The translations under genes were made by a program, and so were the position numbers. A DNA stretch of 21,929 nt, taken from a virus. Below the pieces are notes generated by a model. It was not told the origin of the DNA. It searched no databases and saw only the letters and a list, made by a program, of their open reading frames with translations. Positions 1 to 12,391 of this stretch are shown in pieces. Every line of letters starts with the position of its first letter. Positions within the stretch are counted from its first letter, which is position 1. Location: IMG/VR virus record IMGVR_UViG_3300032238_000700, positions 1 through 21,929 of that record; one strand, given 5' to 3'.

Positions 1-307
1 AACTGCGTAAAACCCGCTGAGAACGCCCGGAACTAGCCCTGCGCCTCTCACCGGAGTCCTCAATATAGCCCTTCTTGATTAGAGGGGCAATCCTTGGAGT
101 GATGCTATTCAACTTCACTCCAGGTATCGATTTCTCGATTTCCTCTGCGGTAAGTCCATTGGGGGCGGCCTTTATCGCCTCATAGACCAGTTTTTCCAGC
201 CTCTGCACAGGTACGAACTCAGCAGCCTCTTTGGAGGTGTCTGGGTCTGTTTTACGGAACAGGGCTTTGAATTTTTCCAGTGACGGGAAATACGCATCCA
301 ATTTCAT
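1..307 (-). CDS. Winged-helix DNA-binding protein, 3' end cut by window
   Basis: The gene reads leftward off the window edge, so about 102 residues are visible and the C-terminus is missing. An N-terminal stretch (about residues 1-35) is followed by a winged-helix-like segment: helices in VQRLEKLVYEAIKAAPN and LTAEEIEKSIPG, then a recognition-helix-like SITPRIAPLIKKGYI and a basic wing (ERRRASSGRSQRV). The pattern of branched residues before an Arg-rich wing is usual in small phage DNA-binding proteins that act as regulators or in replication. The start is chosen because AAGGA lies a few bases upstream of the ATG. It is the most distal visible gene of the leftward early operon. The fold is inferred from pattern only; target and function are unknown. 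Confidence 0.6.
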   Translation of the reverse strand, partial: MKLDAYFPSLEKFKALFRKTDPDTSKEAAEFVPVQRLEKLVYEAIKAAPNGLTAEEIEKSIPGVKLNSITPRIAPLIKKGYIEDSGERRRASSGRSQRVLRS

Positions 308-412: not shown

Positions 413-538
413 TTAACGGCAGCCGCAAGACATCTTGCCGTTGAAGGTGCTTTGGCAGTCGTAGCGTGTACCCATAGGGCAGGAAGCAGCGGCAATGCCA
501 GAGATGGTCAACAATGCAATAGCAATCAATTTTTTCAT
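413..538 (-). CDS. Tiny exported cysteine-rich peptide (41 aa)
   Basis: This short gene encodes 41 residues. MKKLIAIALLTISGIAAAS is a textbook signal peptide: two lysines, a hydrophobic core, then small residues before the likely cleavage site. The mature part of about 22 residues holds four cysteines (C20, C28, C38, C40), enough for two disulfides in the periplasm. AASC is only a poor match to a lipobox, so a lipoprotein is possible but less likely. A strong AGGAG ribosome site lies five bases before the ATG. It sits between the SpoVG-like gene and the winged-helix gene in the leftward early operon. I do not recognise a family. Possible roles are an effect on the host envelope or superinfection, but nothing in the sequence decides this. 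Confidence 0.6.
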   Translation of the reverse strand: MKKLIAIALLTISGIAAASCPMGTRYDCQSTFNGKMSCGCR

Positions 539-550
539 GGTTTACTCCTG

Positions 551-850
551 TTAAAACGGTACATCATCTTTCATGTCATCAAACCCACTCGAGCGCACTT
601 GCCCTTCAGCAGGTTGACTTTGGAGCGCCTTTTCAAGTACCGCACGATTGAAAAGATCATTCCCAAAGAAGAATTTGAAATATTTGCCATCATCCTGTTT
701 TTTTGCAGGGTAGCTAATAAATTTGCCGGTGGGGCCATCCTTGATCTGGCAACTACGGATGGTCATAAACGGCTCCTTGCCTGGAGTGCTTGACACCTTG
801 ATGTTGAAGGACGGGTACTTGCCGTTTGTCCATTCAGTTTTGATTTCCAT
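551..850 (-). CDS. SpoVG-like nucleic-acid-binding protein with SSB-like acidic tail
   Basis: The protein has 99 residues. Residues 28-75 resemble the SpoVG fold: a strand FMTIRSCQIKDG, then the loop GKFISYPAKKQDDGKY and a helix FNRAVLEKAL, matching the SpoVG order of 'IRVIDG', 'FVAMPSKR.PDGE' and a C-terminal helix. SpoVG proteins are small DNA/RNA-binding proteins. The last nine residues, DDMKDDVPF, look like the acidic tip of bacterial SSB (DDDIPF type), which recruits recombination and replication partners. It lies directly downstream of the ERF annealing gene with a one-base gap, where many phages place SSB. The likely role is ssDNA binding or partner recruitment during ERF-mediated recombination. 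Family similarity is recalled, not computed. Confidence 0.65.
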   Translation of the reverse strand: MEIKTEWTNGKYPSFNIKVSSTPGKEPFMTIRSCQIKDGPTGKFISYPAKKQDDGKYFKFFFGNDLFNRAVLEKALQSQPAEGQVRSSGFDDMKDDVPF

Positions 851-851
851 T

Positions 852-1481
852 TCAACTTCCTTCTTTCAGGCTTTCGCCATATTTTTTGATTGATGACCGA
901 ACTTTGCTATTCAACATATCCCAAAGGACTGTTTTCTCATCAGGGTCGGTTATTCCTGAATACTCTTCAAACGCTCCAATGATGTCATCAACTTCAAAAC
1001 GCTCATAAATAGCTTGTTGGACATCAACAATGACACTCATTCTGTCATCATCAATTTTTGTGTCGCCTCTTGGCGTGATGATGGGTGCATCACCTTTCTT
1101 GGGCTTGTCTTTGACTGCATCTAATTCATCATGTTCAACGATCTCAAGCGCAGACACCCACAGATAACGGCGCAAATAGGTTTGCACTGCTCCCAGGTTC
1201 TGAACCTCTTGGTTGCCCTTCATTGCCGCATTGGACATAGGGGATGTGAAAACAATTTTTTCTTCAGGATTTTCAGTGTTGACAATGGTCATGCTGGCAA
1301 ATTCTTTGTCAAAAGAAATTAGCGACAGCAGGCCAACGTCTTTGAAAATACGCATGGCAGGGATGGTGAAGTCACCGAGTTCGAAGTATCGGTAGTTTGC
1401 AAATTGATTGTGTCCACTTTTCTTCAACTTCTGTTGATGGAACACATCCCTAGCTTCATTGAGTTTCTGATATACGTTCAT
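852..1481 (-). CDS. erf: ERF-family single-strand annealing protein
   Basis: This 209-residue protein carries the ERF signatures: NYRYFELGDF at 29-38, a Met-rich loop (MSNAAMKGNQE) before QNLGAVQTYLRRYLW at 94-108, and ALEIVEHDELD at 111-121. ERF proteins, such as P22 Erf, bind ssDNA and anneal complementary strands, circularising the genome and promoting homologous recombination. The length fits the family. The C-terminal 80 residues are acidic and less conserved and may bind partners. The SpoVG/SSB-like gene follows immediately in the same operon. The ATG start is preceded by a modest GGAA site. Confidence 0.9.
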   Translation of the reverse strand: MNVYQKLNEARDVFHQQKLKKSGHNQFANYRYFELGDFTIPAMRIFKDVGLLSLISFDKEFASMTIVNTENPEEKIVFTSPMSNAAMKGNQEVQNLGAVQTYLRRYLWVSALEIVEHDELDAVKDKPKKGDAPIITPRGDTKIDDDRMSVIVDVQQAIYERFEVDDIIGAFEEYSGITDPDEKTVLWDMLNSKVRSSIKKYGESLKEGS

Positions 1482-1501: not shown

Positions 1502-1729
1502 TTAATTTTTTTCCCACCATGACGCTGGTTTGCATTCAAGAATCAAACCTTCTTCATCAGGATCGCCTCCATAACTCAAAACAAAGTGTTTTTTGCCATT
1601 GACCATGATTGTTAATGGAACATCAGGGTTGCACATTTCACTTTTGTCATCTGCTTCAGCGTATTTAACGCAAGATTCACCCATTGCTTCCCACAAGGAT
1701 TTGGTTGTAAATTTTTGAAAGAAACTCAT
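1502..1729 (-). CDS. Hypothetical phage protein (75 aa)
   Basis: I do not recognise this 75-residue protein. It has an aromatic, basic N-terminus (MSFFQKFTTKSLWEAM), then a predicted beta-rich middle (VPLTIMVNGKKHFVLSYGGD) and an acidic to aromatic end finishing in ASWWEKN. No signal peptide or membrane segment is seen. Its start overlaps the stop of the upstream gene by four bases (ATGA), indicating translational coupling, and it lies just upstream of ERF in the leftward early operon. A role in early DNA metabolism is suggested only by position. Confidence 0.65.
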   Translation of the reverse strand: MSFFQKFTTKSLWEAMGESCVKYAEADDKSEMCNPDVPLTIMVNGKKHFVLSYGGDPDEEGLILECKPASWWEKN

Positions 1730-1989
1730 TTGCTCAACCTTTCATATTCATCGATTTGTTCTTGGATCAAGTATTTCTGACTATCGTCATCCAATTCACT
1801 AAAGTCAACAAAGTGGTTTTCTTGGCAGCAGTGCCACTTATCGCCTTTTGCTTTTGCACAGTAACAGCAGTACAACTCATCTGATTTATTCAACTCCTCG
1901 CGGATGTTGTCTGCAAATGTCTTTAGTTTCATATCATGTTCCCATTCTTGTTCACGTTGCACGGTTTCGTAGAATTGTTGCTGGCTCAT
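1726..1989 (-). CDS. Cys-rich hypothetical protein with zinc-knuckle-like cluster
   Basis: The 87-residue protein has an N-terminal charged helix (about 1-37), a compact Cys/His cluster, CCYCAKAKGDKWHCCQENHF at residues 41-60, and an acidic C-terminal helix ending QEQIDEYERL. Five cysteines and two histidines within 20 residues suggest zinc binding. I recall similar small proteins with a KWHCC.ENHFVDF core in other phages, all without known function. It overlaps the next gene by four bases and touches the previous stop by one base (TAATG). It may be a nucleic-acid-binding or host-takeover factor; the function is unknown. Confidence 0.7.
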   Translation of the reverse strand: MSQQQFYETVQREQEWEHDMKLKTFADNIREELNKSDELYCCYCAKAKGDKWHCCQENHFVDFSELDDDSQKYLIQEQIDEYERLSK

Positions 1990-11063: not shown

Positions 11064-11350
11064 GTGGTTACACTTCTGGCAACAAAGCCCCGACTTTGAT
11101 GGCTCAAGCCCCCAATCGCCGTGGCAATCAATCTAAGCATACCGCTACCGGCTCTGGTGGCGTTACCGCTGTGACCCGCCCTCAAGGTAGCACGGCTTAT
11201 GCCGGTGGTCATCAAGGCGCTGCTTCTACGGGTAAAGACGCTACCACTGGTCGCGGTCAAAAAGTTTCCGTGAGCCGCCCCGCTTGCTACGACAAAACGC
11301 CCAACAACTCTGGTTACATGAACAGTGACCGGACCAACTACCTGAAGTGA
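11060..11350 (+). CDS. Low-complexity Gly/Ser/Thr-rich protein (96 aa)
   Basis: The protein [20 protein letters not shown]... is rich in Gly, Thr, Ser and Asn, basic, and lacks hydrophobic core stretches, so it is probably disordered. AAAGG precedes the ATG, which overlaps the previous stop. Nothing in it identifies a family. Position in the late operon between small and large terminase suggests a virion or packaging accessory protein. Confidence 0.65.
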
Positions 11351-11357
11351 GGCAATC

Positions 11358-11582
11358 ATGTCCTACGGAAAAGTAATTGATGGTGGCGCTCAAATGCGTA
11401 AAGGTGTCAGCAAAGGCATCAATAGCAAAGTTGCAAGCCGCGAAAAAGAATATTCCCGCCGCGACAGCGTTGCCGCCCAGGTTGTGGATGCGTACAAAGT
11501 CCGTGTGTTGTCCAACCAATCCACGAATGATGTTCGCAATGGTGATAAATTCAAAAAGGGCACTGTGCCCTCAAAGGTGTGA
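11358..11582 (+). CDS. Small basic hypothetical protein (74 aa)
   Basis: The product is MSYGKVIDGGAQMRKGVSKG followed by a Lys/Arg-rich helix (SREKEYSRRDSVAAQVVDAY) and a basic end. No signal peptide, membrane segment or known motif is seen. A GAGG ribosome site lies before the ATG. It is a late-operon gene of unknown function that may bind nucleic acid given its charge. Confidence 0.6.
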   Translation: MSYGKVIDGGAQMRKGVSKGINSKVASREKEYSRRDSVAAQVVDAYKVRVLSNQSTNDVRNGDKFKKGTVPSKV

Positions 11583-11584
11583 TT

Positions 11585-11734
11585 ATGAAAATCGCTGATT
11601 TCAAACGTGATGAAAACAATGCCGTGGTCGCCATCCTTGATGACGATTCGGAAAAGGTTCTGTCTGCTGAATATGTGGCTGCAAACAAGCCGCAAATCGG
11701 TGATGAACTTATTGAAGAAGCCCCCGCTGAGTAA
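11585..11734 (+). CDS. Small acidic hypothetical protein (49 aa)
   Basis: The 49-residue protein MKIADFKRDENNAVVAILDD... is acidic and beta-like in its first half, ending DELIEEAPAE. AAGGTG precedes the ATG and overlaps the stop region of the previous gene. No family is recognised. It directly precedes the 213-residue structural-like gene. Confidence 0.55.
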   Translation: MKIADFKRDENNAVVAILDDDSEKVLSAEYVAANKPQIGDELIEEAPAE

Positions 11735-11749
11735 TTGAAAGGACATAGT

Positions 11750-12391
11750 ATGGCAACGTATGACATCGAGGCCCTCAAGGCCGACCTTCCCACGGCTAAA
11801 GACCTAGCGCAGTTTGTGTATGACCGCACAACCATTGCGCTAGACCTCATTGGCAAACCCAAAGATGAGCAATACCAAGTTGCTAAAAATGCTTTGGAAG
11901 GCAAGAAGGTTCCCGCTGAGTTCCTGACTCAAGAGAACCCGTATGTGGAGCGCAAGGACATCATTCCTGAAGACCCCCTGCCTCCCATGCCTGGGCGCGT
12001 AGATGGTCTGCCTCCTGAAGAAAGCCGAGTCCATTACTTTGGCGCAACCAATATGCCTCACCCTGAAGACCCGCAATCGGATCGCAAGGTGGCTATTGAT
12101 TTCCGCAAGTACGACAACGGCATGATTACTTTCCAGATCGTTGGTCCTGTTGAGCAGGTCGCCGTGGGCGAGAAGCTGAACAAGTATGGTCAACGTGTGC
12201 CTGAGAAGTATTCATGGATTGACCCGCGCACCCCTGAGATGGTGTGCCGCCGTGTTGATGGCTCATTCACTGAGCGTGGTCGTGGCCTCTACACTTATTG
12301 TGTGGGTGAAAAAGGCGCTGGCATTTGGACTCTGATTGACCGTGATGTGGTCAGTGTGAACTCCAAGAACATTGCTAACCCCTGGGCATAA
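11750..12391 (+). CDS. Late-operon hypothetical protein (213 aa)
   Basis: This protein has an N-terminal helical part (about 1-60), a Pro-rich central stretch (EDPLPPMPGRVDGLPPEE), then a beta-rich C-terminal half with VAIDFRKYDNGMITFQIVGP and a GAGIWTLIDRD segment. I recall related proteins in other podoviruses upstream of the large terminase, all unassigned. The ATG at 11750 with AAAGGA upstream is chosen over a TTG codon at 11735. Its stop shares one base with the next ATG (TAATG). Confidence 0.65.
   Translation: MATYDIEALKADLPTAKDLAQFVYDRTTIALDLIGKPKDEQYQVAKNALEGKKVPAEFLTQENPYVERKDIIPEDPLPPMPGRVDGLPPEESRVHYFGATNMPHPEDPQSDRKVAIDFRKYDNGMITFQIVGPVEQVAVGEKLNKYGQRVPEKYSWIDPRTPEMVCRRVDGSFTERGRGLYTYCVGEKGAGIWTLIDRDVVSVNSKNIANPWA

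Follow-up and report, generated by a model that had tools for sequence, protein, structure and literature searches.

The window, by which we mean the whole 21,929-base virus record IMGVR_UViG_3300032238_000700, harbors on its minus strand an annealase module with the following genes and features:

2..307, minus strand: small downstream gene of the module, running off the window (open reading frame; the start of its protein matches that of the L003 gene).
551..850, minus strand: gene P0001, 99 amino acids, a SpoVG-like core with an SSB-type tip (translation, orthologues, fold).
554..586, minus strand: codons of the SSB-type tip GFDDMKDDVPF, P0001 residues 89-99 (sequence; low pLDDT in the tail).
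611..850, minus strand: SpoVG-like core, P0001 residues 1-80 (core-only hhalign; elements of the predicted model).
698..703, minus strand: codons of P0001 K50-K51, aligned with the basic pair of SpoVG, K50-R51 in S. aureus (alignments; a passage of PMC3688583).
848..854, minus strand: stop of the ERF gene and start of P0001, TGA-A-ATG (sequence).
852..1481, minus strand: P0002, ERF-family single-strand annealing protein (PF04404, 4.7e-9; phrog_155, 4.2e-21).
855..1094, minus strand: C-terminal segment of ERF, residues 130-209, common to the Sak-type annealase of L025 (blastp, alignment).
1726..1989, minus strand: gene of 87 amino acids kept upstream of the annealase in L002-L004, L024 and L025 (gene-family comparison).

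P0001 ends in SSGFDDMKDDVPF (translation of 551-850, minus strand). A single base separates the stop codon of the ERF gene from its ATG, a junction that would be compatible with translational coupling of the two genes. Orthologues with 93-94% identity occur on three other contigs (3300043448_000527, 3300051212_000674 and 3300028948_000473) and diverged ones with 45-48% identity on 3300027969_000236 (L017 and L024, one contig) and 3300032284_000936 (L025); on this comparative evidence from sequence, P0001 is therefore a real gene. With a seventh contig, 3300037488_000954 (L091/L197), where the contig end truncates the gene (HMM, 1.3e-13), the family was found on seven contigs, window included, and is thus rare. 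A homologue of the small 2..307 gene, whose family had no match in Pfam, comes after the P0001 relative in L002-L004, L024 and L025. Between P0001 and that gene, a short frame was noticed by eye at 413-538 (minus strand); its 41-residue peptide has a signal-like start and several cysteines.

The neighbor of P0001 had been called ERF in an earlier reading made from the sequence only, and this assignment holds, as P0002 obtains 36.8 bits against PF04404, above the gathering cut-off of 25, in addition to its match to phrog_155. The neighborhood search suggested by the same reading revealed an annealase directly before the P0001-family gene in all six contigs with the upstream flank present, namely ERF in five and a Sak-type protein in one (L025). 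These types were assigned by Pfam for four annealases (ERF in the window, L003 and L024; SSAP_Sak, PF06378, 3.5e-42 in L025) and by homology to ERF for L002 and L004. The spacing is one base or a short overlap. In the L197 contig the upstream side is lost and NinB (4.8e-30) lies downstream. One and the same C-terminal segment is found on two annealase cores, ERF (855-1094 of the window) and Sak (L025:3259-3486), the L025 Sak-type protein and the L024 ERF sharing 55% identity over 117 amino acids (E 1e-38 in a four-sequence set). The annealing core was thus replaced, but the C-terminus stayed in place, as did the relative of P0001. Given this shared segment and a passage on E. coli SSB in PMC8303780, the C-terminal segment may be considered a candidate docking module for an SSB-type tip. 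When a Red-beta-like C-terminal domain was looked for, the ERF segment had no match among PDB sequences at a useful E-value.

The tail of P0001 was proposed early on to be of SSB type, and its end, GFDDMKDDVPF, proved to be a near-copy of the tip of an OB-fold SSB. Indeed, it is acidic and PF-terminal, as is demanded of a canonical SSB tip, and is identical at 10 of 11 residues to the tip of the L011 protein, which ends in GGFDDMKDDIPF. By comparison, the SSB of E. coli ends in DDDIPF and that of phage HK620 in NDYPPF, as given in a passage of PMC5928155. A chance origin of the tail was rejected, since P0001 alone has the ending [DE][DE][IVLYT]PF among 653 mechanical ORFs of at least 60 amino acids, taken from the window and 22 loci chosen without regard to the tail. 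Within the family, the tip reads DDVPF in the window and L002-L004, DDTIPF in L025 and DDDIPF in L197; the L024 variant, DDIKF, in which K replaces P, counts against the SSB reading.

The tail is also found on other cores. In eight of the 11 loci of the first scan for relatives, the tail alone of P0001 was matched, and reading these loci revealed three further cores with a P0001-type tail. The L011 protein is a canonical OB-fold SSB (PF00436, 1.7e-33), the six loci L006-L010 and L012 encode a protein similar to phage SSB families (in L006, weak matches to phrog_6015 and phrog_2300, next to an AAA_24 ATPase, PF13479), and L005 encodes a 100-residue protein with a core distinct from that of P0001. 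A census of viral contigs then gave at least 119 tip-bearing proteins, which were clustered by single linkage; seven groups were compared with family libraries through one representative each, as were three further singles. The representative of the largest cluster (at least 54 proteins) belongs to PF00436 (1.3e-36), that of a cluster of at least 40 to phrog_862 and that of a cluster of at least eight, which includes the L005 type, to phrog_18187, both without annotated function, and that of a cluster of at least five to phrog_743, an SSB family. The L006-type cluster counts at least two members and there are at least 10 singles, two of them of the P0001 family (L004 and L091). Among the matches listed, most tip carriers with an assigned function are ssDNA-binding proteins, which supports the tip of P0001 as an SSB tip; L062, L095 and L134 are carriers that are not obviously ssDNA-binding. 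When genome contigs were scanned with the tail, one contig of a Flavobacteriales MAG matched. When the final 12 codons (counting the stop) are compared with those of P0001, third positions agree at nine of 12 in L011, L005 and L162, at eight of 12 in L085 and at four to six of 12 in L024, L025, L057 and L197, which is no more than suggestive of a tail cassette at the DNA level.

Some tip carriers merit a mention in their own right. The L062 protein (11091-11981, plus strand) has a TIR domain and is of the CAP12/Pycsar effector type (PF10137, 7.5e-34; PADLOC TIR effector, 9.8e-50), and its C-terminus is an SSB tip, SGFDDMDDDIPF. Its gene lies beside what we take to be an integrase gene, and the protein might serve in prophage defence, docking in the manner of SSB. 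SSB-tip proteins without Pfam family are encoded at L134:4328-5431 (368 amino acids), L095:5748-6377 (210 amino acids) and L101:9832-10125 (98 amino acids), the last matching phrog_24909, whose function is not annotated. Similarly, a small beta-rich phage family with SSB-type tips occurs in 40 loci (L158:4001-4300, L162:4001-4261, L182:1311-1571 and others); the protein chosen to represent its tail cluster has matches to phrog_18187 and phrog_37570, and in L005 the family is found after ERF and YqaJ. It is a candidate for a further SSB core.

The slot occupied by P0001 is itself informative. L011 and L005 have further genes in common with the carriers of the P0001 family (families 4, 5, 7 and 11 of the gene-family comparison), and both encode YqaJ (6.3e-24 and 8.1e-27, respectively); L005 also has ERF (9.8e-22), and L011 begins within an upstream gene or immediately ahead of it. 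The slot after YqaJ holds the OB-fold SSB in L011 and the third core in L005, for which a model with pLDDT 70.5 had no PDB match with E below 0.6. The gene following the slot is homologous between L003 and L005 (28% over 82 amino acids, E 1.7e-4 in a six-sequence set). Comparison of L011, L005 and the carriers therefore indicates one slot with three unrelated cores and nearly one tip. The window and the five further P0001-family records that were searched contained no match to the SSB family PF00436, and among related records it was present in one of nine, that of L011; records may be incomplete, so that a canonical SSB could sit elsewhere. Alternatively, P0001 could be a SpoVG-fold nucleic-acid binder that acts not as the coating SSB but as a mediator or loader, with a role as that of UvsY in T4 or Orf in lambda, its tip gathering the annealase and host SSB partners on ssDNA coated by the host SSB. 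Its small gene and short linker would suit such a role, as would the C-terminal segment of the annealase retained when the annealing core was swapped, and host SSB may serve in the P0001-family records tested, where PF00436 is lacking. However, the very slot of P0001 is held by a canonical SSB in L011 and, in most erf modules of Firmicutes phages, by an SSB (ssb is associated with about 80% of their erf genes; PMC8093625), and we regard a mediator as an unlikely, if sensible, alternative to P0001 being itself the SSB of the module.

The core was first suspected to be of SpoVG type from its residue pattern. This proposal remains weak in single-sequence searches, as P0001 obtains 13.6 bits (E 0.074) against Pfam SpoVG (PF04026), for a gathering cut-off of 29.6 that its relatives L017 (13.6 bits), L025 (16.6) and the partial L197 (15.8) do not reach either, E 0.021 against NCBIfam SpoVG, and rank 2 with E 1.3 for 2ia9 in the PDB. 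It becomes clear by profile. A five-row family alignment (A3) placed three SpoVG entries at ranks 1-3 in the PDB (E 0.25-0.89), and hhalign of the P0001 family gave 94.7% against 13 SpoVG rows, some of which had been found with a motif from P0001 itself. The comparison was repeated with eight rows found by tblastn, the seed of which was itself motif-found, and gave 91.8%, or 92.6% when restricted to the core; shuffling the columns of the eight-row comparison 200 times yielded at most 7.9%, with a score of 20.6 vs 39.6 for the real alignment. P0001 carries, without gaps, G39, G42, F44, P48, K50, D54 and G55 at the positions of S. aureus SpoVG, and K51 stands for R51. The pair K50-K51 is invariant across the P0001 family and in register with K50-R51 of SpoVG in the alignments, a basic pair (50-51) required for DNA binding according to the mutational data in a passage of PMC3688583. 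Residue 63, in the same register as in S. aureus SpoVG, is a glycine, so that P0001 lacks Pro-63, which a passage of PMC3362512 describes as essential for function. P0001 is thus, as judged from sequence profiles, a distant SpoVG homologue outside PF04026 as drawn, and it should not be filed under this family because it scores below the cut-off and has no Pro-63. Matches to Nup120/160 (Pfam, E 0.02, ranked above SpoVG) and to butyrophilin (PDB, E 0.83) were rejected as due to chance, each being a single weak match without profile or fold support.

P0001 has no family in PHROGs and no match in named phages (E 0.1) or plasmids, its core, searched at E 10, found nothing better than E 1, and no relative appeared in the scan of genome contigs. 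The L025 relative matches the faecal phage clone MT836115.1 at 1e-3 and the part of L197 preceding the tip matches the faecal clone MT836463.1 at 8e-3, both clone proteins being clear SpoVG (4.7e-17 and 5.3e-24, respectively); the same part of L197 had no match in plasmids.

A structure was predicted for P0001 from the A3 family alignment alone, with middling confidence (pLDDT 70.2). The model consists of four strands followed by a helical part (E2-7, E14-20, E29-39, E42-46, H58-61, H65-77) and of a tail with pLDDT below 50 at residues 83-92 and 94-97. In Foldseek against the PDB, the best 10 of 200 matches were all ten SpoVG chains (prob 0.66-0.99), and three SpoVG entries had VIA Z values of 7.4, 7.2 and 6.8, the next entry being at 5.1. 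No OB fold was present among the listed structural matches, and no SSB-titled entry among 45 VIA rows, a re-alignment of Foldseek's own choices that excludes nothing. The structural comparison with SpoVG and OB folds, which the sequence-only reading had called for, thus comes out on the side of SpoVG, and computation supports a SpoVG fold for P0001; the protein is probably a dimer, as SpoVG is. An ordinary OB-fold SSB was rejected, with no PF00436 match in P0001 up to E 10, SpoVG chains at the top of the fold search and a profile match to SpoVG. The tip and the slot could still be explained by an OB-fold SSB diverged past recognition, but these same results, with SpoVG chains and not OB folds heading the fold search, render this very improbable.

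What a SpoVG core might do beside an annealase is suggested by its relatives. The SpoVG of Listeria binds ssDNA non-specifically, although weakly (Kd 1.2 uM), and does not bind dsDNA significantly, as described in a passage of PMC4959528; it is therefore credible that a SpoVG core binds ssDNA. The same passage reports a preference for RNA (273 nM), and SpoVG of S. aureus and Borrelia are reported as site-specific DNA binders in part of PMC3688583, so that another nucleic-acid role is possible for P0001. Another alternative is that P0001 is a mimic whose tip, of the host SSB type, fills the SSB-docking pockets of host repair proteins (e.g., RecO, PriA, exonucleases) and keeps the phage DNA free, the core being a scaffold or an RNA/DNA-binding regulator. 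The RNA preference of the Listeria protein and the sharing of the tip by unrelated cores, including the TIR effector of L062, agree with this idea, but annealase pairing in six of six contigs, the one-base spacing or short overlap and the conserved K50-K51 better suit DNA handling, and we hold a mimic to be improbable.

We rather favor as likely that P0001 is a SpoVG-fold, non-OB phage ssDNA-binding protein that stands in for SSB in the ERF module, a replacement suggested by its tip, its slot beside the annealase, the SSB found in that slot in L011 and the ssDNA binding of Listeria SpoVG. In phage HK620, stimulation of Sak4 by SSB occurs both in vivo and in vitro, and the six-residue tip of SSB is required for the binding of Sak4 to SSB-coated ssDNA, according to a passage of PMC5928155; together with the Listeria protein and the association of erf with ssb, this makes P0001 most likely the SSB of its module. 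The small beta-rich core would bind ssDNA non-specifically through K50-K51, and the tip at the end of the flexible acidic tail would dock partners, the co-encoded annealase being the most likely one and host SSB-interacting proteins probable further ones. P0001 would then coat the phage ssDNA and pass it to ERF for annealing, as may be compared with SSB and Sak4 of HK620. More generally, and with somewhat less assurance, we lean towards the SpoVG fold being a non-OB ssDNA-binding scaffold made into a true phage SSB by the tip, in modules where ssDNA-binding cores (OB, SpoVG and a third small beta core) and annealing cores (ERF and Sak) would be interchangeable and the tip, the gene slot and the C-terminal segment of the annealase conserved.

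P0001 resembles SpoVG (PF04026; S. aureus, B. subtilis, Listeria) in its predicted fold, conserved positions and basic pair, but differs by its score below the Pfam cut-off, its glycine instead of Pro-63, its location in a phage annealase operon and its SSB-type tip, which is absent from S. aureus SpoVG. The HK620 SSB is, like P0001, a tip-bearing SSB of non-canonical type directly beside an annealase, but belongs to the DUF669 family and is paired with Sak4 rather than ERF or Sak. The canonical SSB of L011 (PF00436) shares with P0001 the slot after the annealase module and the nearly identical tip, but has an OB-fold core without similarity to that of P0001. SpoVG-like proteins of phi29-like C. 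perfringens podoviruses also lack Pro-63 and their role is called unknown in a passage of PMC3362512; unlike P0001, these proteins and those of L016, L023 and L027 have no SSB tip and are not beside an annealase.

Such tipless SpoVG-like proteins were seen in phages that look phi29-like, at L016:8479-8805, L023:1187-1483 and L027:3720-4019. Their neighbors are a gene of about 700 amino acids, which we take to be a protein-primed DNA polymerase, and presumably an ATPase-like gene; there, too, the SpoVG-like protein could act as the SSB. A further viral contig encodes a SpoVG at the Pfam level (L026:2924-3247, minus strand, 3.9e-12) that ends in DGTQDKIPY, a sequence with a faint likeness to an SSB tip.

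Phage SSBs from other families are already known next to annealases; a SpoVG fold in the SSB role of an annealase module appears to be new, and no such proposal was found in the titles and abstract openings of the papers listed on SpoVG with phage ssDNA, SSB or ERF and on non-canonical phage SSBs. The role of SpoVG is disputed between septation, site-specific DNA binding and RNA binding, and P0001, with its SpoVG-like core, SSB tip and annealase neighbor, offers a simple system to probe the ssDNA activity of SpoVG directly. We suggest that the SSB tip is usable as a search handle for unrecognised phage ssDNA-binding cores, and matched annealase-SSB pairs may be of use in recombineering. If true, the reading of SpoVG as an ssDNA-binding scaffold would suggest that binding ssDNA is an ancient property of SpoVG.
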